DNA of 64,000 bases from Mycoplana dimorpha. Lineage in GTDB: Bacteria; Pseudomonadota; Alphaproteobacteria; Rhizobiales; Rhizobiaceae. How positions within the stretch are numbered: position 1 is the stretch's first letter; each line of letters opens with the position of its first letter. The translations under genes were made by a program, and so were the position numbers. Positions 46,922 through 64,000 of this stretch are shown one piece after another. The notes beneath the pieces were generated by a model. That model searched no databases. It was not told where the DNA came from and saw only the letters and a list, made by a program, of their open reading frames with translations. The stretch is from positions 124,001 through 188,000 of the forward strand of contig NZ_PZZZ01000003.1 of NCBI RefSeq assembly GCF_003046475.1, written 5' to 3'.

Positions 46922-47373
46922 TCATATCTGGCTGGGCTTGATCGTTGCGACTGAAATCTCTCCCGCCAGAACCCCGCGTTCCAGATCTGTCCTGCCGTGC
47001 TCGACCTCGATGACGGTATAAAGCTTTTCGGAGCGGAACGCGCTTGCGTTTGCGGTCGTGACGTCATCGGCCGGCGCGGCATCGATGTCCATGTAATCGA
47101 GCTCTCGCCCGGACGCGACGATCCGGGCGTCTCTGCCGTGCGCGCGGCGACCAGAACCTCGCCTTCATAGGGCCCATTGTCCCATCGCGGATCACCCGGC
47201 TCGGCGATCGGAACCAGTCGATAGATGTTGAGGGGCTCGCCCTTCCCGACTTCGGGGGATGAAAGCAGCGAGGCATCCTCCCTCTGGGCTCGACTTTCGG
47301 CCGAGGAACCGAACGTCGTGCCGCTGGTTCCGGTGTTGCATTCGTCGGTTCCGGTCTTTGAGGTGTTCGACAT
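46922..47373 (-). pseudogene. Conserved hypothetical protein, apparent 1-nt frameshift
   Basis: From ATG 47373 (GGAGGCGCCA upstream) the frame reads MSNTSKTGTDECN ... YRLVPIAEPGDPRWDNGPYE then GEVLVAARTA and then loses sense. Shifting by one base near 47142 restores DARIVASGRELDYMDIDAAP ... ASAFRSEKLYTVIEVEHGRT ... GEISVATIKPSQI to a stop at 46922. The composite of about 150 residues looks like a small conserved rhizobial protein of unknown function. One missing base (about GCAGAGAC for GCAGGAGAC) explains the break. Real mutation or assembly error cannot be told apart here. Confidence 0.7.
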
Positions 47374-47734
47374 TGGCGCCTCCGGAGTCTTTGTGTGTCC
47401 GATCTGGTCAACGATGCCGGCTGCACCAAGGTTCCAGCCTTCTTTTTTGATTTCGACATGGAAGCCCCGGACGTGGAACATCGCAAAACGCCGTGTGTTT
47501 TAGGCGCCGATCAAGGAGGCGCAGCGTGCCGGACAGCAAGAAGGACGCCCGCCGGGAGGGCTTACCCATGGCCAGGGATTCTCGCGAGGTGCGTTACCAG
47601 TTCGCGCCATCATCAAGGCTGGTGCGCCCTTATGCCGGCAGTTGAATTGCGGTGGCGGGCGTATATCATCATCGACTGCCGTCGGTTTTCCGTCGGCATC
47701 GGAACGATTTCTTCCGCTTTCCAGGGAAGAGATC
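47374..47734. other. 361-bp intergenic region
   Basis: Divergent region between the frameshifted hypothetical gene and the next hypothetical gene. It should contain promoters in both directions. No specific element, RNA or gene recognised. Confidence 0.35.
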
Positions 47735-48170: not shown

Positions 48171-49220
<1,050 letters not shown>

Positions 49221-49233
49221 CGGAACCTTCCTT

Positions 49234-50346
49234 CTATACCCGCGCCTGTCGGGACTGCCGTGGGAGCCTTTGCTTTTCTCTCAGGCCCAGGCATCGGAGC
49301 GCCGAGGCGAATTCGCGGGCGCGGACCTGTCCCGTATGGCGACGGAGCACGCAGGCCTGTGCCCGCGCCGCCAGGTCCTGCCTTCGGGGTTCATCGATCA
49401 CCGTGAGGGCGCGAACCACGTCGGTAGTATCGCCGACGACCACGAGCGCGCTGCCGAACAATTCGTCGAGGCCGGGCCAGCAGTCGCTGATGAGCGGCGT
49501 CCGGCAGGCCGCCGCCTCGAACAGCCGCACGCTCGGCGACCACCCTGCCGCCACCATGTCGGCGCGGGTGACGTTGAGGGTGAAGCGCTGGCGGCTGTAG
49601 AACGAGGCGTGCCGTGCCGGCGGCAGGTGTTCGATCCGCTCGACGTTGGCCGGCCAGTCGATTGTCGCTGGATATTGCGGTCCGGCGACGACAAAGCGCA
49701 TTTGCGGCAACTGGCGGGCCGGCTCGATCAGCAGCCGCTCTAGGACGGGCTGGCGGTCGTCGCTGTAGGTGCCGAGATAGCCAAGGTCCCAGGATGCCGG
49801 CTCGCCGGTGTGGCGATAGCTTTCCGCGGCCACGGAACAATAAAGCGCGATCGCACGCCGGGCGCCATACACCCGTTCCAGCCGCTCCAGCACCGCACCG
49901 CCGGTGAACGAGAAATAAAGGTCGAAACGCGGGATCTGGCGCCGTGCCAGATAAGCTTCGTCTCCCTTGTCGAGTTTTGCCAGCGTCACGGGCGTGTCGA
50001 TGTCATAGAAGCACACGCCTTCGTTCCGTAAGCCAAGCAAGGCGTCGATGACGGCCACGCCGTCCGGCAGGTAGGAGCCGACCACCACCGCGTCGGCGCT
50101 CGCCAGCCGATCCGAAAAGCGCGCCAGCAGGTCCGGTACGTCGCGGTAGAACGAAAGCGCGCAGAATTCGGGGTCCGCGAGGTCGCGGTTTTGGGCATAC
50201 CAGGGGACGTCACGCTCGAGAAAGAGCAGCCGATGCCCGTCCGCGTCCAGCCCCTTCAGAAGGGCTCGGTAGGTGGTGGCGTGGCCGTTGCCCCAGGAGG
50301 AGGACAGCGACAGGCCGAGAAAGGCGATGTCGAGCTGATCTGTCAT
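49234..50346 (-). CDS. CgeB family glycosyltransferase candidate, copy 3
   Basis: A 370-residue two-Rossmann-type protein. It shows [20 protein letters not shown], the conserved [30 protein letters not shown] and the C-terminal [20 protein letters not shown]. CgeB proteins (COG4641) are presumed glycosyltransferases. It is one of three tandem relatives, joined to the upstream one by a 4-bp overlap. Confidence 0.85.
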
Positions 50347-51428
50347 TCGGCGGCCTCCCGCTTCGCCAGCATGGCGAGGACGCGGTCGACCTCGGCTGCG
50401 CGCTGGTCGTAGGTGTGGTGTCGCAACACGCGCTGCAGCGCGGCGGCGCCGATCTCGGCAGCCCGCTCGGGCGTCAGTTGCGAGACGATCTCCTCGACAT
50501 CCTGCCCGTCGCGGGCGACCAGCACCTCCTCGCCGGGCGCCAGGAACAGTTCGATCCCTTCCCAGGCATCGGTGACGAGGCAGGCCCCGGCCCCGGCCGC
50601 CTCGAAGACGCGGGTCGCCGGCGAGAAGCCATTGGTCGCCATGTCCTGTCGCGAGATGTTGAGCACCGCGAGCGGCGAGGTGTTGAAGGCGTTGTGGTCG
50701 CGGGTCGGTACGTGACCGAGATAGCGCACGTTCGGCGGCAGCGACTTGTCCTGCCAGCCGCTGCCGCCGAGCAGGAATCGGTGGCGGTAAAGGTGCGTGG
50801 CCGGCTGCAGGAAGAACGCTTCCACCCGGGCCTCGCGGTCCGGCAGGCGGTTGCCGAGGAAGGCGAGGTCGGCGGCAAATCGCGGCTTCGGTGGCACCGG
50901 CCGATGCGTTTCTGGATCAAGTGCATTGTAGATCGGTACGCACAGCCCGGCACCGACCTCCCGATAAGCTTCTACCACGGGCTCGCCGCCGCCGTAGGTG
51001 AGCACGGCGTCGAGGCTCGGAAGCGCGCGGCGCAGCGGACTGCCGGGGTCAGCCCGCAGGGCGGCGAGCGTCGCAGGCGCGTCGACGTCCCAGAACAGCT
51101 TGAGCGCGCCCGGCCGGGCTGCGGCAAGTAGGCATTTCAGCAGGAGGTCGTCCTCGAAACCGACGCCGCTCGCCTTGACGACGACGTCCGCAGCCGCCGC
51201 CTCGGCCGCCGCCGCCTTCAGTGCCGGCACGGTGCCCGCATAGACGACGACGTGGCACCAGTCGGGCGGCTCGATGTCGCGATTGGTCTGCCGGTCGTAG
51301 ACGTCGGGCTCGTAGAAGGTGATCGCGTGGCCCCGGGCGGCAAGGGCGCGCAGCAGCCCCCGGTAGTAGGTCGCAGCACCATTCCAATAGGCCGACAACA
51401 GGCTCGAACCATAGAACGCGATCTTCAT
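50343..51428 (-). CDS. CgeB family glycosyltransferase candidate, copy 2
   Basis: A 361-residue paralogue of its neighbours: KIAFYGSSLLSAYWNGAATY, LFWDVDAPATL (matching the YDIDTP motif), DLAFLGNRLPDREARVEAFF and RVFEAAGAGACLVTDAWEGI. Overlaps both neighbours by ATGA junctions. The divergence between copies suggests different acceptors or linkages. Confidence 0.87.
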   Translation of the reverse strand: MKIAFYGSSLLSAYWNGAATYYRGLLRALAARGHAITFYEPDVYDRQTNRDIEPPDWCHVVVYAGTVPALKAAAAEAAAADVVVKASGVGFEDDLLLKCLLAAARPGALKLFWDVDAPATLAALRADPGSPLRRALPSLDAVLTYGGGEPVVEAYREVGAGLCVPIYNALDPETHRPVPPKPRFAADLAFLGNRLPDREARVEAFFLQPATHLYRHRFLLGGSGWQDKSLPPNVRYLGHVPTRDHNAFNTSPLAVLNISRQDMATNGFSPATRVFEAAGAGACLVTDAWEGIELFLAPGEEVLVARDGQDVEEIVSQLTPERAAEIGAAALQRVLRHHTYDQRAAEVDRVLAMLAKREAAE

Positions 51429-52537
51429 GCGGCCGTCTCCCGTAGTGGCGTCCTGCCGAGTCCGGCGAGGATGGACAGAAGCTCGTCGACGCGGTGCCGG
51501 CAGGTATGCCGCGCGCGGATGGTCTCGAGGCCCGACGCAGACAGCGCCGCGGCGAGGGCCGGGTCCGAGAGGATCGCACGCAGGTGCTGCGTCATCTCTC
51601 CTTCGCTTCGGGCGAACAGGAAGTCCTGCCCCGGCCGGAACAGGCCTTCGCTGTCCTGCCAGGGCGCGGAGACCAGCGGGATCCCGCAGGCGAGCGCCTC
51701 GAAGACGCGGATCGTCGGGATCCCGGCAAGCGCCTGCACATAGGGCCGGCGCGGGATGTGCACCGTGAGGCGACTTCCGGCGAAGGCCCGCGGCACGTCG
51801 GCATTGGCGATCCAGCCGCCGTAGTCGATACCGGCATCGCGCAGCAGTTCGATGGCTTCAGCCGGGTAGCGCACCCCGCGCACGGCGGCGCGGATGCCGA
51901 GTTGCCGGACCGGCCCGACCAGATAGGTCATGATCTCGTCGCTGCGTTCGCCGTCGCCCCAGTTGCCGACCCAGAGGAGGTCGTTCGTCCTTTCCACCTC
52001 CGGCAGCGGCCGGAACAGCCGATCGTCCGCCGCCTCGTGCCAGGTCACGACCTGCCGCCCCCAGCCGGCACGGAGATAGCGCTGCCGAAGCGTTTCGCCG
52101 AAAGCCAGCACCAGGTCGTAGTCGCCGAGATCCAGACTGGCGAGTTCGCTGCCGCGGGACACGGCGCGGTGATGGGTGTCGTGGAAGGCCAGCACGAACC
52201 TGCCGCCGTCGCGGCGAATGCGCCCGATCCGCGCCACCAGCGCCGGATCGGTCCACTCGTGGACCACGACGACGTCCGCGTCGCCGGTCTCCGCCTCGTG
52301 ATCGCACGCGCCGGTATAGATTTTCGTGCGAAGTTCGGGGAACGCCCGATGAAAATCGGTGATCGCCGCACCGCCCCGTTCGGCCACCAGGCTGCAGCGG
52401 CTCCAGGAATCCGCGGGCTCCAGCGCCACCGCCTCGTGTCCGCGCGAGACCAGGTCGCGCATCACCCCGCGCAAGAAATGCGCGTTGCCGTGGTTCCAGT
52501 CCGATATCAGCGAGTGCGTGTAGAATACGAACTTCAT
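51425..52537 (-). CDS. CgeB-like glycosyltransferase candidate, copy 1
   Basis: A 370-residue protein of the same architecture: KFVFYTHSLISDWNHGNAHF, DVVVVHEWTDPALVARIGRI, DLLWVGNWGDGERSDEIMTY and RVFEALACGIPLVSAPWQDS. The central motif is FHDTHHRA rather than YDIDTP, so it is the most divergent of the three. Starts 3 bp after the GT4 gene stop. Confidence 0.85.
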   Translation of the reverse strand: MKFVFYTHSLISDWNHGNAHFLRGVMRDLVSRGHEAVALEPADSWSRCSLVAERGGAAITDFHRAFPELRTKIYTGACDHEAETGDADVVVVHEWTDPALVARIGRIRRDGGRFVLAFHDTHHRAVSRGSELASLDLGDYDLVLAFGETLRQRYLRAGWGRQVVTWHEAADDRLFRPLPEVERTNDLLWVGNWGDGERSDEIMTYLVGPVRQLGIRAAVRGVRYPAEAIELLRDAGIDYGGWIANADVPRAFAGSRLTVHIPRRPYVQALAGIPTIRVFEALACGIPLVSAPWQDSEGLFRPGQDFLFARSEGEMTQHLRAILSDPALAAALSASGLETIRARHTCRHRVDELLSILAGLGRTPLRETAA

Positions 52538-52540
52538 GGC

Positions 52541-53686
52541 CTACTCCGCCGCCTCCATCCTTTGCATGCGCTCCAGCGCACGGGCATAGACGTCGAGCGC
52601 CTGCCGGCACTGATGCTCGAGCGAGAACTGCTGCGCCCGTTCGCCGGCCTGCCGCGCGAGTCGGCTCCTGAGCAGCGGATCGTCTGCCAGCCGGTCGATC
52701 GCCGCGGCGATCGCGGCCGGATCATGCGGGTCGGCGAACAGGGCGGCCCCATCCCACAGTTCCCGGTAGGTCGCGATGTCGGCGAGCACCAGCGCCGCGC
52801 CCTTGCGTGCCGCTTCCAGGGCAGCAAGTCCGAACGGCTCGTAGAGCGACGGCGAAACGAAGATCGCGGCGGTTTCCATCAACGCGGCGACTTCGGCGTG
52901 CGGAAGTTCGCCGGGCGCGCGCGCATGGGTGACTGCAAGCTGACTGCCCTCCGGGCCTGTGAGCGCCCCCGCCATCAGCACGGGGGTGCGGCACTGCGCG
53001 GCCGCCCGGTCGAGCGCCGCGCCATTCTTGCCCTCGTCCCACCACCTGGCGGCGGCCAAAGCGAAACCTTGCTTCGGATGCCGTGCGACCGGCAAACAGC
53101 TGGCGTTGTGGATCACCTCCAGCCGCGCCACCGGGCCATAGCAGCGCCGAAGCGCTTCGGCATGGCTGCGGCTCGGCGCAAGCACGACGTCCGCCCTTTC
53201 GAAGCCGCGCCGGTTGCGACGCTCGTGCCACGCCCAGCGCTCCGGGACGGGGCTGCCGTGGACAGCCTCGAACCAGGTGACGACGCAGGAATGCGACACG
53301 GCGATCACCGGCACCCGCACATCGAGTCCGGCCGCCTGCGAGGGCGCATTCAGGTGCACGAGGTCGATGGCATGGCGTTGGACGAGCGCTTCGATCAGCG
53401 CCGGGATGCGATCGAGTCCCTCTTCTCCGTCGCCGGTCCAGTCGAGATCGGCGTCGAGCCAGACCAGCGTGCCGATCGCCGACGCTTCTTTCGACTGGGC
53501 AACGGAGGGCTGCGGCCCGAAGCCGGCGAACACCACCGTGCATCCTTCCCGGTGCAGTGCGCCGGCGAGGTCCATCGCGTAGCGCCAGACGCCGCCGACC
53601 GCGTCGACGCTCATCAGCACGCGACAGCCGCGGGCGCCGTCGCGGCACCCGGTCGGCTGCCGTTTGATGCCGGGTGGAGCGTTCAT
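52541..53686 (-). CDS. Glycosyltransferase family 4
   Basis: A 381-residue GT-B enzyme. The N-terminal GGVWRYAMDLAGALHREGCT binds the acceptor region, and the C-terminal FVSPSLYEPFGLAALEAARK carries the E-x7-E retaining motif, followed by ADIATYRELWDGAALFADPH. The donor is probably a nucleotide sugar made by the neighbouring epimerases. Overlaps the upstream epimerase gene by 4 bp. Confidence 0.92.
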   Translation of the reverse strand: MNAPPGIKRQPTGCRDGARGCRVLMSVDAVGGVWRYAMDLAGALHREGCTVVFAGFGPQPSVAQSKEASAIGTLVWLDADLDWTGDGEEGLDRIPALIEALVQRHAIDLVHLNAPSQAAGLDVRVPVIAVSHSCVVTWFEAVHGSPVPERWAWHERRNRRGFERADVVLAPSRSHAEALRRCYGPVARLEVIHNASCLPVARHPKQGFALAAARWWDEGKNGAALDRAAAQCRTPVLMAGALTGPEGSQLAVTHARAPGELPHAEVAALMETAAIFVSPSLYEPFGLAALEAARKGAALVLADIATYRELWDGAALFADPHDPAAIAAAIDRLADDPLLRSRLARQAGERAQQFSLEHQCRQALDVYARALERMQRMEAAE

Positions 53687-54813
53687 GCCACGCCCCTCCT
53701 ATGCTGCATCTCCGCGCGGTCAGGACAATTGTCGCGAATCCAATCGCAAAGGTCCGAAAGGCCCGGCCGCCAGCCGATCCGCGGCCGCCAGCCGATGGCG
53801 TCGCCCAGGCTCCGCGTGTCGGAAACGTAGTAGAGCTGGTCACCCGGCCGCCACGCCCGGTGCTCGCGGGGCACCGGATGTCCCAACAGGGCCTCGATTT
53901 CACTTAGGAGGCTCAGGAGGCTGACGGCATTTTCCGGGCCGCCGCCGAGGTTGAAGGCACGTCCGGCAAGCCTCTCTATCGACTCCAGTACTGACCGGTA
54001 GGCGGCCACCGCGTCCCCGACGTGCAATACGTCGCGTACCTGCCGGCCGTCGCCGTAGAGCGTGATGGTTCCCCCGGCGATCGCCCGCATCAGGAAGTGG
54101 GCGACCCAGCCCTGGTCCTCAGTGCCGAACTGGCGCGGGCCGTAGATGCAGCTCATGCGAAGCACCGCCGTCGGCAGTCCGAAGCTCGTCGCATAGTCGA
54201 GCACATACTGGTCCGCCGCGCCCTTGGAGCAGCCATACGGGGTGCAGAAGTCGAGCGGCCGGTCCTCGCCGATGCCGTGGAGGCGGATCGCCTCGTCGGT
54301 CGGCAGGTACTGGTCGCGCGCCTTGGCAATCTCGATGTCGCCGAGCGCGCCATAGACCTTGTTGGTGCTGGCAAAGATGACGGGCGCGTTCCGCCCCGCC
54401 TTCCGCGCCGCCTCGAGCACGTTGAGCGTGCCAAGGGCATTGACCTCGAAATCCTCCCGCGGCTGTGAAAGGCTGGTCGTAACCGCTGTCTGTGCGGCGA
54501 AGTGGAAGATCGCCCGGGCATCGGCGAAGGCCGGTGTGATCGCCGCCCAGTCACGGATGTCGGTGATTACAGGATGAACGCGTGCCCCGTGCCGTTCCTT
54601 CAGCCAGTCGAGGTTTTTCTCCACGCCTGCGCGGCTAAGATTGTCCAGCACGATGACATCTTCGCCGTCCGCAAGATAGCTGTCGGCCAGGTTCGAGCCG
54701 ATGAACCCGCTGCCGCCGACGACGAGGACGGGAGCCGCCCCTCCGTTGAGAGCGGGCCGGGCCAGCGCCCCTGCCTTGCCGCGCATTTCATGTGAGAGGT
54801 TTGTGCCCGTCAT
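53683..54813 (-). CDS. NAD-dependent epimerase (CDP-paratose 2-epimerase-like)
   Basis: A 376-residue extended SDR: VLVVGGSGFIGSNLADSYLA, IFHFAAQTAVTTSLSQPRED, the long insertion with FASTNKVYGALGDIE and FCTPYGCSKGAADQY (YxxxK), then RMSCIYGPRQFGTEDQGWVA. The FGTEDQGWVAHF segment is typical of RfbE/CDP-paratose-2-epimerase-like proteins. Substrate not certain. Coupled at both ends by ATGA overlaps. Confidence 0.88.
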   Translation of the reverse strand: MTGTNLSHEMRGKAGALARPALNGGAAPVLVVGGSGFIGSNLADSYLADGEDVIVLDNLSRAGVEKNLDWLKERHGARVHPVITDIRDWAAITPAFADARAIFHFAAQTAVTTSLSQPREDFEVNALGTLNVLEAARKAGRNAPVIFASTNKVYGALGDIEIAKARDQYLPTDEAIRLHGIGEDRPLDFCTPYGCSKGAADQYVLDYATSFGLPTAVLRMSCIYGPRQFGTEDQGWVAHFLMRAIAGGTITLYGDGRQVRDVLHVGDAVAAYRSVLESIERLAGRAFNLGGGPENAVSLLSLLSEIEALLGHPVPREHRAWRPGDQLYYVSDTRSLGDAIGWRPRIGWRPGLSDLCDWIRDNCPDRAEMQHRRGVA

Positions 54814-55916
54814 GAAACCAGCCCCCGTTCTTCCAGCTGCCGTCTCATCTCCGGCCCGCGGTCGATGGCACCGCTCTCCCGAACCCAGCGGGCGAAGTCC
54901 TCCAGTGAGCCTTCGAGCATGTGCTGCGGTTCAAAGCCGAGCAGGCGCTTGGCCTTGGAAATGTCCGCAAAGCAGTTGCGGATGTCGCCGCTGCGCACCT
55001 TGCCGGTGATCTCCGGGGCGATGTGTGGCACGCCCATCTCGCGCGCCAGCAGCCTGGCGACATCTGCGATGGAATAGGATCGCCCGCTGCCGATGTTGAT
55101 CGCTTCGCCTGCCGCCTGCGGCTCGTCGAGCGCCAGCCGGAAGGCGCGGGCGACGTCGCGCACGTGCACGAAGTCACGTCGCTGGCGCCCGTCCTCGAAA
55201 ATGGTCGGCGGCTGGTGGTTGGCGAGGCGCGAGGCGAAGTTCGCAAGCACCCCGGTATAGGGATTGGAGAGCGCCTGTCCGGCGCCGAACACGTTGAACA
55301 ACCGCAGCGCCACGGCGTCGACGCCATAGGCGCGACCGAAGATCAGCACCTGGCGTTCCTGGGCGTATTTCGTCAGCGCATAGATCGACTGGAGATCGGC
55401 GGGCTTCGCCTCGTCGGTGGGAACCGGCGTGACCGCGCCGCCGTCCGGTCCGGCGGGATCCCATCCGTGGGCAGACGTGGACCCTGCGGAACGGCGTACC
55501 ACCTCCAGCCGATCCCCCGCTTCGTTTACGTAGCGACCCTCGCCGTAGATGCTCATGGAGGAGGCGACGACGACGCGCTCGATCGGGAGACCGATCATCG
55601 CCTCGAGCAGCACGGCCGTGCCGAGGTCGTTGGTGCCGACATAGCGCGCGATCTCGTACATCGATTGGCCGACCCCGACCTCGGCGGCGAGATGCAACAC
55701 CTTGGTCACTCCGTCGAGCGCCCGGCGCACCGCGCTGCCGTCGCGCACGTCGGCGCGGACGATCTCGGCTCCCGCCGGCACGTCTGTATCCGCGTCCTGG
55801 TGCACCTGTGCGATGAGGGCGTCCAATATTCGTACTTCATGTCCGCCGGCGAGGAGTTCTTCGACGACATGGCGGCCGATGAAGCCGCAACCTCCGGTGA
55901 CGAGTATCCGCTTCAT
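54810..55916 (-). CDS. NAD-dependent epimerase (dTDP-L-rhamnose 4-epimerase-like)
   Basis: A 368-residue extended SDR: RILVTGGCGFIGRHVVEELL, VLHLAAEVGVGQSMYEIARY, ASSMSIYGEGRY and the catalytic IYALTKYAQERQ. The inserted PVPTDEAKPADLQS segment resembles bacterial dTDP-rhamnose/6-deoxyhexose 4-epimerases. It is the first gene of the minus-strand operon and its 160-bp upstream gap faces the DUF1003 gene. Confidence 0.87.
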   Translation of the reverse strand: MKRILVTGGCGFIGRHVVEELLAGGHEVRILDALIAQVHQDADTDVPAGAEIVRADVRDGSAVRRALDGVTKVLHLAAEVGVGQSMYEIARYVGTNDLGTAVLLEAMIGLPIERVVVASSMSIYGEGRYVNEAGDRLEVVRRSAGSTSAHGWDPAGPDGGAVTPVPTDEAKPADLQSIYALTKYAQERQVLIFGRAYGVDAVALRLFNVFGAGQALSNPYTGVLANFASRLANHQPPTIFEDGRQRRDFVHVRDVARAFRLALDEPQAAGEAINIGSGRSYSIADVARLLAREMGVPHIAPEITGKVRSGDIRNCFADISKAKRLLGFEPQHMLEGSLEDFARWVRESGAIDRGPEMRRQLEERGLVS

Positions 55917-56076
55917 ATCAAGTCCTACGTGTCAGGTACAAACGTTATGGGTGCGCCAGAACAACGGCATCCCGTGAATGTTCCATTGCAGGTTCTTTGT
56001 AGTGGCGGGTCCCGGCCGGACGCGGGAACTGTTCGGCGTACGCCGCGTTGGCGGAGTCGTTGAATTCTCAAAGCGG

Positions 56077-56652
56077 ATGTCGCGTATGGAACGCCCCCCA
56101 AAAATTGCTGAAGCCCCGTCGTCCGATGATCCTCCGGCGGACGATGGACGGATTTCGAGGGTGCTGGATCGCAATATCGACGTCCTGCTCTCCCGCCAGG
56201 ACGCCGCGGAAAGCGCGATGACGCTGCAGACACGCGTCGCCGACGCGATAACCCGGTTCGTGGGCAGCATGCCATTCGTCTATATTCACCTGGCGGCGGT
56301 GGTCCTCTGGGTGCTGGCAAATGTCGGCTGGCTGCCGCCCATTCCCGTCTTCGATCCGTCGTTCGTGATGCTCGCGATGATTGCCTCGGTCGAGGCGATC
56401 TTCATCACGACCTTCGTGCTCATCAGCCAGAATCGAATGATGGAGATGGAAAGCCGGCGCGCGGACCTCAATCTGCAGATCTCCCTGCTCGCCGAGCACG
56501 AGACCACGCGCCTGATCGCCCTCGTCTCTGCCATCGCCGAGCGGCTCGACGTCGAGACTGACGTCAATCCGGAGGAACTGGACGACTTAAAGCAGACCGT
56601 CTCTCCCGAAGCGGTGCTCAACCAGATCGAGCGCAAGCGCAAGTCGGATTGA
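56077..56652 (+). CDS. DUF1003 membrane protein
   Basis: About 191 residues. Two adjacent membrane helices (FVYIHLAAVVLWVLANVGWL and FVMLAMIASVEAIFITTFVL) are followed by SQNRMMEMESRRADLNLQIS, the DUF1003 core, and a cytoplasmic helical tail. Starts at 56077 or 56086 are possible, and the open frame extends upstream to 55978. Function unknown. It overlaps no neighbour but precedes the dehydrogenase. Confidence 0.85.
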   Translation: MSRMERPPKIAEAPSSDDPPADDGRISRVLDRNIDVLLSRQDAAESAMTLQTRVADAITRFVGSMPFVYIHLAAVVLWVLANVGWLPPIPVFDPSFVMLAMIASVEAIFITTFVLISQNRMMEMESRRADLNLQISLLAEHETTRLIALVSAIAERLDVETDVNPEELDDLKQTVSPEAVLNQIERKRKSD

Positions 56653-56744
56653 GGCTGCATCTTCTTTGTACCTCGCGGGAACCGGGCAGCGACCTTCGAG
56701 TTATGAGCGCATTCGGACGGCGCGTCGGCGAAGGGACCTGCGAC

Positions 56745-57728
56745 ATGAACGTGACCACAGTGGCGCGAGAGATGAAGGCGGCGATCGTCACCGGTCCGGG
56801 CAGGATGAAGGTCGAGACGCTGCTGGTCCCTGAACCCGGGCCGCGGCAGGTCCGGATCCGGCTGGAAGGCTGCGGCGTCTGCGCCTCCAACCTGACGCCC
56901 TGGGCCGGTCCGGAATGGATGATTTTTCCGACCGAGCCCGGCGGACTCGGGCACGAGGGCTGGGGAAGGATCGACGCGGTCGGCGAAGGGGTGCGGGACA
57001 TCCACATTGGCGAGCGCGTCGCCGCACTCTCCTATCATGCCTATGCCACTCACGATCTGGCCGATCGGTCGGCGATCGTGCCGCTGCCGGCGGAGCTCGA
57101 CGGCATGCCGTTTCCAGGCGAGCCGCTCGGTTGCGCCATGAATATCCTGCGCCGGAGCGGGATCGTCGCCGGCGAGACGGTCGCGATTGTGGGCATAGGC
57201 TTTCTCGGAGCGCTTCTGACGCAGCTTGCGTCTGCTGCCGGCGCAAGGGTCATCGCGATATCGCGCCGCTCCTCGGCGCTGGCGCTCGCCGAAACAATGG
57301 GGGCGCGGACTTGTATCCCCATGAGCGACCATGCCCGCATCATCGGTGAGGTCCGCGACCGCACGGAGGGTCGCTTCTGCGATTGCGTCATCGAGGCGGT
57401 CGGCAAGCAGTGGCCGCTCGACCTTGCCGGTGAACTGACGAAGGAGCGCGGCCGGCTGGTCGTGGCCGGCTACCATCAGGATGGTCCCCGGCAGGTCAAC
57501 ATGCAGCTCTGGAACTGGCGCGGCCTCGACGTGATCAACGCCCATGAGCGCGATCCGGCCGTCTACGTGCGCGGCATGCGCGAAGCGGTCCAGGCGGTGG
57601 TTTCCGGCCGCCTGTCGCCCCTTTCCCTCTACACCCATACCTTCCCGCTCGATGAGCTGGACACGGCGCTCGACATGACGCGCGATCGTCCCGAGGGCTT
57701 CGTCAAAGCACTGGTGGACTGCACATGA
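56745..57728 (+). CDS. Zinc-type alcohol dehydrogenase family protein (MDR)
   Basis: A 327-residue medium-chain dehydrogenase: GCGVCASNLTPWAGPEW near the catalytic zinc site, LGHEGWGRIDAVGEGV, and the NAD(P) motif VAIVGIGFLGALLTQLA. Structural-zinc cysteines are not seen. ATG 56745 has AAGGGAC upstream. It overlaps the Gfo/Idh gene by 4 bp; the two probably act in succession on one sugar or inositol derivative. Confidence 0.87.
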   Translation: MNVTTVAREMKAAIVTGPGRMKVETLLVPEPGPRQVRIRLEGCGVCASNLTPWAGPEWMIFPTEPGGLGHEGWGRIDAVGEGVRDIHIGERVAALSYHAYATHDLADRSAIVPLPAELDGMPFPGEPLGCAMNILRRSGIVAGETVAIVGIGFLGALLTQLASAAGARVIAISRRSSALALAETMGARTCIPMSDHARIIGEVRDRTEGRFCDCVIEAVGKQWPLDLAGELTKERGRLVVAGYHQDGPRQVNMQLWNWRGLDVINAHERDPAVYVRGMREAVQAVVSGRLSPLSLYTHTFPLDELDTALDMTRDRPEGFVKALVDCT

Positions 57729-58747
57729 GCGAACCGCCAGCCAGCGTCGGCCCCGCCCGACCTCGCCCCTTGCGGCTCGGCTTTGCCGGCGTCGGCTGGA
57801 TCGGCCGCCACCGGATGAAGGCGATGCTGGAGACCGGCCTGGCGGAGGCGGTGGCGCTTTGCGATCCCGCCCCTGCGATGCTTGAAGAAGCGCTGGCGAT
57901 CGCACCCCTTGCGACCGTCGTCCCTACCTATGGATCCATGCTGGAACACGGGTTGGACGGCATCGTGATCGCCACGCCGAGCGCGTTGCACGCCGAGCAG
58001 GCGATCGCTGCGCTCGACACCGGCCATGCGGTGTTCTGCCAAAAGCCGCTGGCGCGATCGCGTGAGGAAACCCGCCCGGTGATCGAAGCCGCCCGGCGAT
58101 CCGACCGGCTGCTGGCCGTCGATTTCTGCTACCGGCATACCGTCGGCATGCAGGCGCTGCGGAAGCTGGCGTCCGACGGCAGCCTCGGCCGGATTTTCGC
58201 CATCGACCTGACGTTCCACAACGCCTACGGCCCCGACAAGGACTGGTTCTATGACAAGGCTCGTTCCGGCGGCGGGTGTGTGATCGACCTCGGCGTTCAC
58301 CTGGTCGACCTTGCCCTTTGGTTGCTCGACTTTCCGCAGGTAGTCTCCGTCGACAGTCATCTCTTCCATCATTCCCGGCCGTTACCGCCCGGTTCTGACG
58401 AGATCGAGGACTTCGCGGTGGCGACGCTCGGGCTCGAAAGCGGCGCCGTCGCGCGCATTGCCTGCTCCTGGCGCCTCCACGCCGGCCGCAACGCGGCCAT
58501 TGGCGCAACCGTCTACGGCTCCGAAGGCGGCGGCCGGTTCCACAATGTCGACGGCTCCTTCTACGACTTTGCGGCCGAGCGTTTCGACGGGACGAACTCT
58601 GTCCCCCTCACCTCTCCGCCCGACGACTGGGGCGGCAGGGCGGCGGCGGACTGGGTGCACCGGGTCGCCGACGGCGCCCGCTTTGACGAGCGGTGCCTCG
58701 AGTTGGAAGCGGTGGCCCGGGTCATCGACGCCATCTACGGACAATGA
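57725..58747 (+). CDS. Gfo/Idh/MocA family oxidoreductase
   Basis: A 340-residue NAD(P)-dependent oxidoreductase: GFAGVGWIGRHRMKAMLETG, FCQKPLARS (the EKPxA motif with Gln for Glu) and CVIDLGVHLVDLALWLL. Members oxidise sugars or inositols, which matches the inositol synthase 2 kb away. Confidence 0.9.
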   Translation: MSEPPASVGPARPRPLRLGFAGVGWIGRHRMKAMLETGLAEAVALCDPAPAMLEEALAIAPLATVVPTYGSMLEHGLDGIVIATPSALHAEQAIAALDTGHAVFCQKPLARSREETRPVIEAARRSDRLLAVDFCYRHTVGMQALRKLASDGSLGRIFAIDLTFHNAYGPDKDWFYDKARSGGGCVIDLGVHLVDLALWLLDFPQVVSVDSHLFHHSRPLPPGSDEIEDFAVATLGLESGAVARIACSWRLHAGRNAAIGATVYGSEGGGRFHNVDGSFYDFAAERFDGTNSVPLTSPPDDWGGRAAADWVHRVADGARFDERCLELEAVARVIDAIYGQ

Positions 58748-58815
58748 TTCAAGCGGCAGCCGAACAAATCGCGCCGGGCGCGGTTATCCATGTACGAAGA
58801 CCCGGAGATGCGACG

Positions 58816-59001
58816 ATGGCCCGTTCGGCAAGGAAGCAAAACCTGGACGCGATTGCCCAGCAGGAACAGGCGGACTACCTGCGCCGGACCTCGATGACGT
58901 TCCTTGAATGCGCCATTCATCTGTGCGTCACCCACATGCCGACGAAGGAAGTAGTCCGCGTCCTCGAAACCCACGCCTGCATCCTCCGGGACTACGAGTA
59001 G
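58816..59001 (+). CDS. Small hypothetical protein
   Basis: A 61-residue protein (MARSARKQNLDAIAQQEQAD...) starting at ATG 58816 with GGAGATG upstream. It is helical with three Cys, ending ETHACILRDYE. It lies 68 bp after the Gfo/Idh gene and convergent with the two-domain protein. No family recognised. Confidence 0.6.
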   Translation: MARSARKQNLDAIAQQEQADYLRRTSMTFLECAIHLCVTHMPTKEVVRVLETHACILRDYE

Positions 59002-59029
59002 GCTCGCCTGCAGGTTGGCGGAAGCGCGC

Positions 59030-60775
59030 TCAGTCGAGCAGGCGTGACAGCCGTTCGGCATAGCTCCGGACCATCGCATGCGCTCGGCCACGGTCGGCGA
59101 CATCGCCGTTCTCGCTGGCCCGCCGCCAAAGCCCGATCTGGAAGGCGAGGTAGCAGGGCACCAGCATGTCGAGCAGTTCGGCGCACACCGTTCGGCCCGT
59201 TTGATGCGAGACAATGCCGGTGATCTCGCTGCGCTCGTCCGCGGAAAGGTCGAACTCGACGGTGGCTCCGGCAATGTCCCAGCCGATGTCCTGCGGTCCG
59301 ATGAGATCATGGCCGGTGCTGTGGTCGAGCGCGTCAGTCTTGATCAGTCGACCGTCCGCTGTCAACAGCCATTCCCATCGGTGCAGGCGGTTGTCGGTAT
59401 CGACGGGGATAAGCCGCCCCTCCAGCCGCTCGGCAAAGCCAAGTAGGCTCTTCAGGGCCGACGCCCTCTCCTGGCCTAGCTGCTCGCCGGTGTTGGCGAG
59501 CGCCATGGCGAACAGCCGGTCCGGGTCGGCGCCAATGGCCGGCGCCCGCAAATTGGCCGCCCGGAAGCCGAGATAGCGTCCGATCCGCTCCACCAGCTGC
59601 GTCCGCTCGAGGTGGCCGGCATCGACCGGCTGGCCGTCGATCCAGCGTTCGATGAGGAAGCCATGGCAGAGCCCGGCCACGGCCGGACAGAACCCGGCTT
59701 CGGCAAGGACGCGCGCCGTGCGCAGCTTGCGCACCCCGGGCTCGCCGATGCCGGCGAACCGCGCGCACCATGTCCCCGAGCGCGTCTGCGCCAGATATTT
59801 CCGCCGCTCGTGCAGGCCATCGATGGGCGGCTGCTGGTCAGCACCGGCATGGCGAAGCTCCCGCCACCTGCCGCCGCCGATGTCCCGCAAGGGTCGGACG
59901 AGCGGTCCGGTGCAGCGTGCGATCCATGTCCCGAGATGGTGGCGTGGATCGGCCGCGCTTGTCAGCATGTCGTCGAAGCCGACGACATGCTGCGCGGTCC
60001 TGTTCCAGTTGTCGCGGGTCTTCCGGCTCGCCCTCTCCCCGCACCCCCCTGCATGGCTGGGAAAGAAGTGGATGCGGCTCCTGCTGACGCCGTGACCGGT
60101 CAGCCAGTCGGCCACGCTCGCAAACGAGCTCCCGGAAAGCCCCGGCCCTTCGTCGACGACTGCGAAACACGCCTCCGGCTTCGCCAGCAGCCGCGCCGCC
60201 AGTCGCGGCCCGACGCGTAGTTCGCGCTGAAAGGGATGCCCGACCGGTCGGACGGTGACCGGCGGCGCGGCCCCCAGCGCAGCCGCGACGATGGCGGCCA
60301 ATCCGGTGCCGATGCTGCGGATGCCGATCACGACGGTGTCCGCGGCAAGTCCAGACCGCATGGCGGCCTCGCCGTAGGCCTCCGGATAGAGCGCGTAAAA
60401 GGCATGCCCTTCCGGCTCCCTGATCCGAAGCCGAGCGTCCGTCGCCAGCGCCGCGAGTGTTTCCGGCCAATCGCTCGGCCACGTCAGCACGTTGGCAAAG
60501 CCGCTGTTCCACGATGCAAGCACGGTGCATGCCAGTTCCGTCAGCAACCGCGCGCACGCCCTATGCGTGTCCGTGTCCTCATCTGCGCCATTGCTCTCGA
60601 ACTCGGCATCGGCGATCCCTTGTGCGAGCTGGCCGACGCGGAGGAAGACGTTGACGAGTGCGGCGTGGCGGTCCAGCCCGGCCGGCAGGCGCATACACAC
60701 GGAACGGGCCGCTTCGATCCCGGCGACCAGGGAAGACCCCGTCTCGATCCGCTCCGCATCACCGTAAACCAGCAT
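59030..60775 (-). CDS. Two-domain protein: phosphoribosyltransferase-like and kinase-like
   Basis: A 581-residue protein of unrecognised family. Residues 145-235 look like a PRTase fold: [20 protein letters not shown] (first strand and loop) and [20 protein letters not shown], positioned like the PRPP-binding loop but with EGPGLSGSS in place of DDxxTTG. Residues 340-575 resemble an aminoglycoside-phosphotransferase-type kinase: [60 protein letters not shown] and [28 protein letters not shown] precedes ATG 60775. It is divergent from ino1 with 149 bp between. Confidence 0.7.
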
Positions 60776-60924
60776 TGCCGCACTCCCTCCGTCGAATGTG
60801 TCCGAACATCCGACCGGCAGAAATGGTCCTCGTCTCCTGCGCCGCCGACGTGAAATATTTGCAGGGAACCATTCAGGGTCGAACCGGTTCGGTGAGGATT
60901 GTAGATGCCGGGGAGCGACGAAAA

Positions 60925-62024
<1,100 letters not shown>

Positions 62025-62028
<4 letters not shown>

Positions 62029-62624
62029 CCACGACCTTCTTCCTCGTCCGCCACGCCGCCCACGACGACGTCGGTCGCTTCCTTGCCGGCCGCGCCGATG
62101 GCGTGGCGCTGAGCGAACCGGGCCGAGCGCAGGCGCGCCGGCTCGGCACCCGCATGGCTCGCGAGGATTTCTCCACGATCTATGCCAGCCCGCGCCAGCG
62201 CGCCCAGCAGACGGCCGCAGCGATTGCCGCCGCCAATGGCGGCGGTCCGGTGCGCACCGCGGACGAGCTCGACGAGGTCGATTTCGGGCACTGGTCGGGA
62301 AAGACCTTTGACATCCTCAACGGCGATCCAGGCTGGCGGCGCTGGAACAGCCTGCGCAGCCTGGCCCGAACGCCCGGTGGCGAGACGATGCTGAACGTCC
62401 AGCAAAGGGCGTTCGCGTTCATCGAAACCCTTGCCGCCGATCCCGGCGACCGACGACTGGTCCTCGTCAGCCATGCCGACGTCATCAAGTCGGTCGTCAG
62501 CCATGTGCTCGGCCTGCCGGCCGACGCCTGGCCCCGTTTCGACGTGGCGCCCGCTTCCGTCACCACCGTGGTGCTCGGCGAATGGGGTGCCAAGGTCTTG
62601 ACGCTGAACGAAATCATCCCGTGA
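62025..62624 (+). CDS. Histidine phosphatase family protein
   Basis: A 199-residue phosphoglycerate-mutase-fold phosphatase: [11 protein letters not shown] (phosphorylated His), [31 protein letters not shown] and the second His in [13 protein letters not shown]. Starts at GTG 62025. Coupled to ino1, so it may dephosphorylate inositol 1-phosphate or a downstream sugar phosphate; this is inferred from context only. Confidence 0.9.
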
Positions 62625-62647
62625 CACCAGGCAGGGGAGCGTGCCGC

Positions 62648-63406
62648 ATGACCATGACCACCAGCGAAGTGCGCCGTCGGATCGAAGAGCTCGGGCCGTG
62701 GTTCCACAACATCGAGCTTGGTGGGGTGGCGACCGCCCCCGACCATTTCCTCGGCGACTATCCGCGCGTCAAGTGGCGCAAGTTCGCCGAAGCGCTGCCC
62801 CTGGACCTCACCGGCCGGACGGTGCTCGACATCGGCTGCAATGCCGGCTTCTATTCGATCGAGATGAAGCGGCGAGGCGCCGACCGGGTCGTCGGCATCG
62901 ACTTCGACGACGTCTACCTCGCGCAGGCCCGCTTCGCGGCGGAGATGACGGGGGCCGACATCGAGTTCCGCAGGCTCTCCGTCTACGACATCGCGGCGCT
63001 CGGCGAGCGCTTCGACATCGTCCTGTTCATGGGGGTGCTCTATCATCTGCGCCACCCGCTCCTTGCCCTCGACCTGATCCGCGAACATGCGGCCGGCGAC
63101 CTGCTCGTCTTCCAGTCGATGCAGCGCGGCGCCGCCGAGATCGCCAACGTCGAGCAGAATTATTCTTTCTGGCGGAGCGATCCCTTCGAGCGGCCGGATT
63201 TCCCGCGCCTGCACTTCATCGAGCATCGCTATGCGGACGACCCGACGAACTGGTGGATCCCGAATGCGGCCTGCGTCGAGGCGATGCTGCGCAGCTCCGG
63301 CTTCGAAATCACCCAGCATCCGGAAAGCGAGGTCTACATCTGCCGCACGGCCGAACGGCCGGAGCACGGCAGACCGGTCTATCCAGCCAAGGGGAGCCGC
63401 TCATGA
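62648..63406 (+). CDS. SAM-dependent methyltransferase (TIGR04290/DUF1698-like)
   Basis: A 252-residue class I methyltransferase. SAM motif I is TVLDIGCNAGFYSIEMKRRG, followed by VVGIDFDDVYLAQARFAAEM and DIVLFMGVLYHLRHPLLALD, the last resembling CmoB-type enzymes. ATG 62648 follows GGGGAGC. Its product is followed by a glycoside hydrolase that starts within its stop codon (ATGA). Confidence 0.88.
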   Translation: MTMTTSEVRRRIEELGPWFHNIELGGVATAPDHFLGDYPRVKWRKFAEALPLDLTGRTVLDIGCNAGFYSIEMKRRGADRVVGIDFDDVYLAQARFAAEMTGADIEFRRLSVYDIAALGERFDIVLFMGVLYHLRHPLLALDLIREHAAGDLLVFQSMQRGAAEIANVEQNYSFWRSDPFERPDFPRLHFIEHRYADDPTNWWIPNAACVEAMLRSSGFEITQHPESEVYICRTAERPEHGRPVYPAKGSRS

Positions 63407-64000
63407 TGGAAGCAGCCATGATCTGGAACGAGCCGAACAACAAGTCGCACTGGGACCCGGAGATCGACCCGGACTGGAGGCTCTTTGCGCAGATGGCGAT
63501 CCTGGCGGGCGATGCGATCGCCGCCGCCGATCCAGGGCTGACGCGGGTGCTCGGCGGCATTTCGCCGATCGATCCCGGTTTCATCGGCCGCATGAAGGAC
63601 TACGGCGTGCTGGATCACGTCGATGCGGTCGCAGTGCATGGTTTTCCGCTCGACTGGAACCTCTGGCAGATCGGCGAGTGGCCTCAGAGGATCCAGGAGA
63701 TCAGGAGCGTCACCAGCCTGCCGATCTGGGTCAGCGAGGTCGGCGTCTCGAGCTTCGGCGCCGAGGAGGTGCAGCGCTGGGGGCTCGAGCGAACCGTCGC
63801 TCTCCTGAAGGGAAAGGCCGAACGCATACAGTGGTACAGCCTCTACGACCTGCCGCGCGCCTGGGAAGCGACGACGCGCCACCGCGAGGCGGAGGGTTCC
63901 TCCTACTACCGGCATTTCTACATGGGGCTCCTGCGCGAGGACGGCTCGCCGAAGCCGGCGCTTCAGGAATTCATCCGCCACACGCCGGAAATCGGCCTGG
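63403..64000 (+). CDS. Glycoside hydrolase, clan GH-A (beta-xylosidase/GH39-like), 3' end outside the window
   Basis: At least 199 residues. AMIWNEPNNKSHWDPEIDPD holds the acid/base Glu in NEPN, and LPIWVSEVGVSSFG holds the likely nucleophile Glu; both are clan GH-A features. AERIQWYSLYDLPRAW and YRHFYMGLLREDGSPKPALQ follow. No signal peptide at the start, so it is probably cytoplasmic. The gene is truncated by the window edge. The UDP-xylose synthase upstream makes a xylose-linked substrate plausible. Confidence 0.8.
   Translation, partial: MMEAAMIWNEPNNKSHWDPEIDPDWRLFAQMAILAGDAIAAADPGLTRVLGGISPIDPGFIGRMKDYGVLDHVDAVAVHGFPLDWNLWQIGEWPQRIQEIRSVTSLPIWVSEVGVSSFGAEEVQRWGLERTVALLKGKAERIQWYSLYDLPRAWEATTRHREAEGSSYYRHFYMGLLREDGSPKPALQEFIRHTPEIGL

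Follow-up and report, generated by a model that had tools for sequence, protein, structure and literature searches.

A candidate general-stress pathway for a small O-methylated, pentose-containing oligosaccharide in Mycoplana dimorpha and related Alphaproteobacteria

We analyzed a 64,000-nucleotide stretch of Mycoplana dimorpha DNA (NZ_PZZZ01000003.1; hereafter the window), in which genes for inositol-phosphate synthesis (ino1), a histidine phosphatase, a TIGR04290 methyltransferase and a glycoside hydrolase lie close to a glycan operon. The end of the hydrolase gene was taken from the contig beyond the window edge. We give about an even chance to the reading that these genes form a general-stress pathway for a small O-methylated, pentose-containing oligosaccharide, which in this variant would be built on inositol.

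Related loci were collected by scanning one genome per species with an alignment of the methyltransferase. This returned at least 576 related stretches, and the best 80 were kept (the 80 loci), each reaching at most 10 kb to either side of the methyltransferase. Because the loci were ranked by closeness to the window's methyltransferase, they over-represent the form with Ino1. The hydrolase was found in 79 loci, Ino1 in 76 and the phosphatase in 72. Ino1, phosphatase, methyltransferase and hydrolase followed one another in one order and on one strand in 70 of the 80, which is more than chance; the genes that a preliminary description of this DNA had regarded as a unit are thus conserved as one. 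A longer order, in which a CgeB-like glycosyltransferase and a nucleotidyltransferase stand between phosphatase and methyltransferase, was seen in 48 loci, the shorter order of the window in 22, and other or cut-off arrangements in 10. The hosts include Mesorhizobium, Microvirga, Devosia, Azospirillum, Bradyrhizobium, Inquilinus and others, with one Thermoleophilia bin.

The methyltransferase also co-occurs with the glycan operon, a tightly packed block of seven genes on the minus strand (55916 to 48171; SDR2, SDR1, GT4, three CgeB-like glycosyltransferases and UXS; Table 1). Two collections were searched, each with one genome per species and many drafts: a relatives sample of 151 genomes (the source genome and 150 others) and an even draw of 337 genomes from the class, the source included. 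Among the relatives, the methyltransferase occurred in 19 genomes and the block's hallmark CgeB2 in 19, with 18 common to both; in the class draw, both occurred in the identical 15. The block was seen in the methyltransferase stretch of 17 of the 19 methyltransferase genomes in the relatives sample. G030 carries the UXS gene beyond the methyltransferase, and the methyltransferase stretch of G094 is an 8-kb contig only. G144 has both the Ino1 module and the block, with a distance of about 3.0 Mb between them by contig coordinates. G048 keeps Ino1, phosphatase and hydrolase side by side on a different contig from the block, with no methyltransferase among them.

Ino1 follows this pair of markers in part. 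PF01658 (E 1e-8) was matched in 9 of 19 genomes of the relatives sample with the methyltransferase versus 13 of 132 without it, and in 7 of 15 methyltransferase genomes of the class draw versus 25 of the other 322. From these counts, methyltransferase and block appear to act as one pathway in which inositol synthesis is optional. Inositol as an obligatory core was rejected, as 10 of the 19 and 8 of the 15 methyltransferase genomes have no PF01658 match at E 1e-8; the methyl group therefore need not sit on inositol. The preliminary description had proposed a methylated glycoconjugate of inositol and xylose. The tie between ino1 and a glycan operon capable of making UDP-xylose holds, as does the place of the methyltransferase in the unit; the necessity of inositol does not. 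At the thresholds used, the search found neither the methyltransferase nor CgeB2 nor Ino1 in any of the six other sampled genomes of the window's genus (G001-G006). The cluster is therefore patchily distributed, perhaps through horizontal acquisition.

EcfG-type promoter motifs precede all three operons of the window (Table 1). In two papers, the EcfG motif is given as GGAAC-N16-CGTT (PMC3892343) and as GGAAC-N17-20-GTT, with enrichment over the 100 bp next to the start (PMC6599016). We counted the motif in the 350 bases upstream of each gene. Sites were found before Ino1 in 62 of 74 loci, versus 2.2 expected, and before SDR2 in 18 of 36, versus 1.1 expected. For Ino1, 74 of 76 loci were counted, two being excluded because the upstream sequence was too short or the match began late; for SDR2, 36 of 40 were counted. 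With the strict CGTT ending, the counts were 31 of 74 (0.72 expected) and 10 of 36 (0.35 expected). Other spacings from 10 to 23 gave at most 4 of 74 for Ino1 and 3 of 36 for SDR2. No site was found before the inner genes (phosphatase 0/71, methyltransferase 0/80, hydrolase 0/79, CgeB2 0/56, UXS 0/31). Among the 19 methyltransferase genomes, the source included, sites precede Ino1 in 7 of 8, SDR2 in 10 of 17, MDR in 5 of 13 and Gfo in 0 of 9. Control Ino1 genes had a site in 1 of 20, and that gene is 29% identical; leaving out G048, whose gene belongs to a cluster module, the count outside the cluster is 1 of 19. A chance motif before ino1 and SDR2 was rejected on the spacing and outside-cluster controls. 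In Sinorhizobium meliloti, both ino1 and SDR2 have EcfG sites. The motif is the one published for the EcfG/RpoE2 regulon of Alphaproteobacteria; in contrast to that regulon, expression of the cluster under EcfG control is here a prediction from sequence. The osmoprotective role raised in the preliminary description would fit these conserved motifs, as would a stress role in general.

Genes of the stress response occur around some loci. The source genome has two NepR genes. With one representative scanned, a sigma factor matching PhyR_sigma2 lies near the module in 18 of the 80 loci, all Mesorhizobium by their titles; the representative extracytoplasmic function (ECF) sigma factor (L066:15380-15964) lies about 5 kb from the methyltransferase. 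PrkA-like and SpoVR-like genes were found in 10 loci each and DUF892 genes in 9, again with one representative scanned for each. As a separate observation, four more EcfG-like sites lie on both strands within about 170 bases of the window beyond UXS (47305-47475); they are probably promoters of other small stress genes.

The hydrolase also separates the two forms of the cluster. Pfam Glyco_hydro_cc scored 19.2 bits on its 199 residues inside the window, below the cut-off of 21. Ten relatives have the methyltransferase and no Ino1. In every one of them a single open frame encodes the hydrolase, at its N-terminal end, together with SDR1, and there the segment matching residues 3-7 to 184-201 of the window hydrolase comes after the part matching residues 181-198 to 293. 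A profile match to PslG (PDB 5bx9, the Pseudomonas aeruginosa enzyme) at 8e-6 includes the acid/base WNEPN stretch and again has its halves swapped: the window enzyme begins at the acid/base stretch and ends with PslG's first part. We built an unpermuted profile from four of the ten fused hydrolase domains, those with ends found by pattern. It matched the window hydrolase as two pieces in swapped order (96.0 and 36.5 bits); when the window hydrolase was doubled, the match became contiguous (138.3 bits; model positions 2-284 of 307). The doubled-sequence match was likewise contiguous in 8 of 8 other loci. The short hydrolase is therefore a circular permutation starting at the acid/base stretch, relative by sequence comparison to both the fused form and PslG. 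A frameshifted or truncated gene was rejected, as the match begins at residue 1 of the window hydrolase in all 79 of the 80 loci that have it. Of these 79 hydrolases, 78 read 294-321 amino acids, and that of L098 is broken into two pieces. Two glutamates, E10 and E112 in the numbering of the first aligned sequence, were invariant in 40 of 40 hydrolases (40 of the 79 were aligned); presumably they are the catalytic residues, as in GH39/GH5-like enzymes.

We counted hydrolase form and Ino1 by whole-genome search in the 34 genomes of both samples that have the methyltransferase or CgeB2, the source counted once. The permuted form (match of 465-590 bits) occurred in 14 of the 34. Another 17 had the unpermuted form only, matching at 64-94 bits over residues 3-7 to 184-197 in frames of 681-1104 amino acids. 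No match of either form was found in G094 and G220, both with Ino1, or in G286, without it, and these three were left out of the split. The permuted hydrolase is present in each of the 13 remaining Ino1 genomes, and 17 of the 18 remaining Ino1-free genomes have the unpermuted form only; the exception, G296, has the permuted form and no PF01658 match. Fisher tests on this table (13, 0, 1 and 17 in the four classes) assume independent genomes, which these are not. The 18 include G015, which has the block and no TIGR04290 match. The fusion with SDR1 was read in ten genomes; in G015 and six class genomes, it is suggested by neighbouring matches and an open frame of 687-1104 amino acids. G354, with Ino1 and the permuted form, also has a partial piece of the unpermuted type at a contig start, which did not pass E 1e-8 genome-wide. 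At its N-terminus, the window's SDR1 seemed to keep part of the linker that joins hydrolase and epimerase in the fused form, but the other standalone SDR1 sequences compared did not show this clearly.

These forms suggest a wider interpretation, which we offer tentatively and hold to be somewhat short of an even chance. The cluster would make an undescribed, dedicated general-stress metabolite of soil and plant Alphaproteobacteria, a methylated pentosyl oligosaccharide of two chemotypes. One would be built on inositol synthesized by the operon and processed by the permuted hydrolase; the other would be inositol-free, with the unpermuted hydrolase fused to a sugar 2-epimerase-like enzyme.

The S. 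meliloti cluster on pSymB (CP050561, 462-480 kb; in strain 1021, ino1 at 255,238-256,341) has the kinds of genes and the arrangement of the window, with annotated beta-xylosidase, histidine phosphatase, inositol-3-phosphate synthase, Gfo, dehydrogenase, epimerases, glycosyltransferases and TIGR04290. The ino1 gene was also found in S. meliloti 2011, and among near matches to S. meliloti ino1, 66 of 70 plasmid records are Sinorhizobium. The difference lies in the methyltransferase: the only annotated TIGR04290 gene of pSymB stands behind UXS, outside the ino1 operon, and falls in a different clade from that of the window. In G051, as in S. meliloti, the TIGR04290 gene stands behind UXS and none lies between Ino1, phosphatase and hydrolase. 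The methyltransferases of these two join ten from the window's family, taken from stretches without ino1, in a clade of 12 (support 100/99). One of those ten, G048, is labelled Ino1-free in the tree and has the Ino1 module on another contig, which makes it a third case of exchange. The Ino1-free G030 has a methyltransferase outside this clade, on a long branch. One TIGR04290 match each was found in the whole genomes of G051 and G048. On the simplest reading, either clade would do the same job, on a methyl target common to both forms of the pathway, which we infer to be a sugar rather than inositol.

These results bear on whether the inositol genes belong to the glycan pathway at all. They could serve another end, such as a storage pool or a phospholipid containing inositol, and share only a regulon with the stress glycan operon next to them; the lack of Ino1 in about half of the genomes with the glycan block fits such a division. 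We consider it improbable, for ino1 and the phosphatase are ordered with methyltransferase and hydrolase in the 70 loci, hydrolase form follows Ino1 in the genome counts above, and the sole TIGR04290 gene of G051, behind UXS, is left for both parts.

Table 1. Genes and EcfG-type sites of the cluster, in window positions.
Feature	Position	Strand	Matches and remarks
UXS, UDP-glucuronate decarboxylase (UDP-xylose synthase), last gene of the block	48171..49220	-	PDB 4gll/2b69
CgeB1 glycosyltransferase	49234..50346	-	PF13524; 33% identical to CgeB2
CgeB2 glycosyltransferase, hallmark of the block	50343..51428	-	PF13524
CgeB3 glycosyltransferase	51425..52537	-	PF13524
GT4 family glycosyltransferase	52541..53686	-	PF13439/PF00534
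SDR1, nucleoside diphosphate (NDP)-sugar epimerase	53683..54813	-	PDB 9rl0 (CDP-tyvelose 2-epimerase), E 2.4e-85, nearest solved relative
SDR2, NDP-sugar epimerase, first gene of the block	54810..55916	-	PDB 6wjb, E 7.8e-42; MoeE5, 4.7e-35
EcfG-type motif GGAAC-N17-GTT, 68 nucleotides before SDR2	55960..55984	-	
EcfG-type site before the DUF1003 gene	56025..56049	+	
DUF1003 gene, cluster membership unsure	about 56077-56652	+	DUF1003 family match; found in 8 of 80 loci
EcfG-type motif, 67 nucleotides before MDR	56678..56702	+	
MDR zinc dehydrogenase	56745..57728	+	PF00107/PF08240
Gfo/Idh/MocA oxidoreductase	57725..58747	+	PF01408/PF22725; PDB DgpA, E 4.5e-27
U581, family-less conserved protein of 581 amino acids	59030..60775	-	in 24 of 80 loci
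EcfG-type motif, 60 nucleotides before ino1	60865..60889	+	
Ino1, myo-inositol-1-phosphate synthase, Mycobacterium-type	60925..62028	+	PF01658; PDB 1gr0
Histidine phosphatase, branch 1	62025..62624	+	PF00300, 158.9 bits
TIGR04290 S-adenosylmethionine methyltransferase	62621 (GTG) or 62648 (ATG)..63406	+	392 bits, cut-off 300
Circularly permuted glycoside hydrolase, clan-A-like	63403..64000, ends 64392 on contig	+	swapped-halves matches

All genes named in the preliminary description are present by Pfam, NCBIfam or PDB matches (Table 1). It had described the ino1 operon as joined by ATGA overlaps. In the window, this is so for methyltransferase and hydrolase, as for MDR and Gfo; the junctions of ino1 with the phosphatase and of the phosphatase with the methyltransferase read GTGA. 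The two dehydrogenases that it placed nearby are also there, the intervening U581 on the opposite strand, which parts the MDR-Gfo pair from the ino1 operon, having been left out. Among the 19 relatives with the methyltransferase, the source counted, MDR was found at 62% identity or more in the fetched stretches of 13 and Gfo at 52% or more in those of 9. Inositol catabolism of the IolG/IolM type is not favoured for this pair (TIGR04380 at 93.4 of 355 bits and NF041097 at 82.5 of 450). UDP-xylose synthesis, also claimed earlier, is borne out by the match of UXS to human UDP-glucuronate decarboxylase (E about 1e-108; residues 10/11-322 of 349), with no NCBIfam equivalog over cut-off (NF008872 at 88.7 of 294). 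CgeB is the name used here for the PF13524 glycosyltransferases. With four glycosyltransferases in the window, and more in relatives, the number of different sugar transfers would be roughly capped.

Ino1 matches PF01658 with 119.8 bits (cut-off 27) and aligns with PDB 1gr0, the Mycobacterium tuberculosis enzyme, across 353 residues (E 2.4e-143). Its genomic partners in M. dimorpha are others. The best NCBIfam model for Ino1 is TIGR03450, the mycothiol-type equivalog, and that for the phosphatase is TIGR03848, the MSMEG_4193 family, which co-occurs with mycothiol, as does the former; GT4 weakly matches MshA. A mycothiol-like thiol cofactor pathway with this Ino1, an MshA-resembling GT4 and an MSMEG_4193-type phosphatase is highly improbable nonetheless. 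All three score below the curated cut-offs (531.7 of 638, 146.8 of 203.85 and 48.6 of 462.5 bits), and the gene at 60925..62028 was filed as Ino1 and not as the mycothiol equivalog because only PF01658 was above its cut-off. The best MshC match in the source genome reached 252.7 of 485.1 bits, with a model that also responds in all 14 control genomes, and a plain mycothiol pathway was rejected on this sub-threshold ligase. Mycothiol synthesis is not known to involve UXS, the methyltransferase or three CgeB transferases.

The assignment of the histidine phosphatase as an inositol-phosphate phosphatase, proposed earlier, did not find support in that form: PF00300 is a broad family, and the source genome has five inositol-monophosphatase-like PF00459 genes elsewhere. 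With these five at hand, a dedicated second substrate is at least plausible. The enzyme may take as its substrate either inositol phosphate itself or inositol phosphate that already bears a sugar.

From the gene families, linkage, co-occurrence, promoter motifs and permutation we infer the following regulation, substrates, order of steps, product, acceptor, location and role. Under stress, EcfG would switch on three transcription units. Ino1 would convert glucose 6-phosphate to inositol phosphate, and the phosphatase would strip the phosphate at once or after sugar attachment, as in mycothiol assembly. UXS would supply UDP-xylose, with SDR1 and SDR2 remodelling further NDP-sugars, and GT4 and the three CgeB-like glycosyltransferases would add a few sugars in succession. 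The TIGR04290 enzyme is predicted to O-methylate; MDR and Gfo would oxidise and reduce a hydroxyl, and the hydrolase would trim or rearrange the product. The product would protect the cell from desiccation or salt. The cluster genes, and the conserved neighbours scanned (part of the neighbour families), include no priming transferase, flippase, polymerase or exporter. With no polymerase or exporter in the scanned part of the set, we expect most probably a soluble, cytoplasmic product.

Alternatively, the cluster would make a glycan or glycolipid of the cell surface, either like a capsule or anchored to lipid, in which inositol is a branch sugar alcohol or the head group; induced by stress, it would protect the envelope. 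In favour of this, several glycosyltransferases and NDP-sugar enzymes are present, and an F420-hydrogenase-like gene and a polysaccharide pyruvyl transferase lie just beyond the hydrolase (L006:1320-3900, equal to window 64320-66900), a pair that occurs in surface-polysaccharide clusters. Both adjoin the cluster in S. meliloti as well. They were not found in most of the 80 stretches (pyruvyl transferase in 7, F420-hydrogenase-like gene in 8), and the absence of assembly and export genes from the part of the set that was scanned also speaks against this product; we regard it as possible and, on this evidence, unlikely. Nothing found indicates the surface location suggested in the preliminary description.

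Several points weigh against the stress oligosaccharide pathway as we draw it, the pyruvyl transferase and its neighbour among them. The absence of Ino1 from about half of the methyltransferase genomes leaves an inositol core not forced. EcfG sites are missing before 12 of the 74 Ino1 loci (five Azospirillum, two Bradyrhizobium, Ancylobacter, Dongia, a Roseomonas bin and two Rhodospirillales bins) and before the module of G048. They precede MDR in only 2 of 18 cases in the 80-loci set. The whole window holds nine relaxed-motif sites versus about 11 expected from background, so its own sites count by position and conservation only. In salt-stressed Ensifer aridi, a relative of S. meliloti, inositol transport and catabolism were reported, and the text of that paper contains neither 'inositol-3-phosphate' nor 'glycosyltransferase' (PMC8877191).

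Other genes vary around the conserved set. U581 had no Pfam or NCBIfam match and none in PDB by profile, and 0 of 22 upstream regions had an EcfG site. Its sequence motifs suggest a phosphoribosyl pyrophosphate-binding or phosphoribosyltransferase-like part and a kinase-like part at its C-terminus. The nucleotidyltransferase (PF00483; L072:9194-9997) lies inside the operon in 54 of 80 loci and not in that of the window; together with a CgeB-like glycosyltransferase, it is inserted before the methyltransferase in 51. It could make NDP-inositol or an extra NDP-sugar. A B12-binding radical S-adenosylmethionine protein of TIGR04295 (L130:15268-16554; 726.7 bits, cut-off 400, one representative) occurs in 25 of 80 loci, and the source genome has no TIGR04295 protein over cut-off. 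In another variant, this protein might carry out a C-methylation or a rearrangement. NCBI thus already models two proteins of the cluster, TIGR04290 (meth_Rta_06860) and TIGR04295 (B12_rSAM_oligo); these models cover single proteins of the cluster or its relatives and name no product. From its short name, those who built the second model seem to have had an oligosaccharide in mind.

We found no description of the cluster, the S. meliloti pSymB copy included, in the open-licence literature, and the name TIGR04290 in no paper there. The main texts of PMC2912261 and PMC10315480 do not contain 'inositol'. Among the genes named by a salt-tolerance association study of S. meliloti (PMC12855168) are two with the annotations mshA and galE1, possibly the GT4 and an epimerase of the cluster. 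The main text of an S. meliloti ECF study (PMC6180224) has neither 'inositol' nor an 'SMb202' tag, a guessed tag range.

The link between permutation and inositol is a natural experiment on how circular permutation may accompany a change of substrate. If the reading is right, the cluster makes an undescribed stress metabolite that can be tested for in a standard laboratory rhizobium. For the majority of RpoE2-dependent genes in S. meliloti, no function has yet been predicted (PMC6180224). The cluster would tie an RpoE2-kind stress response to a complete-looking small-molecule pathway, and it is present in S. meliloti 1021 and 2011, so its product should be reachable by metabolomics.

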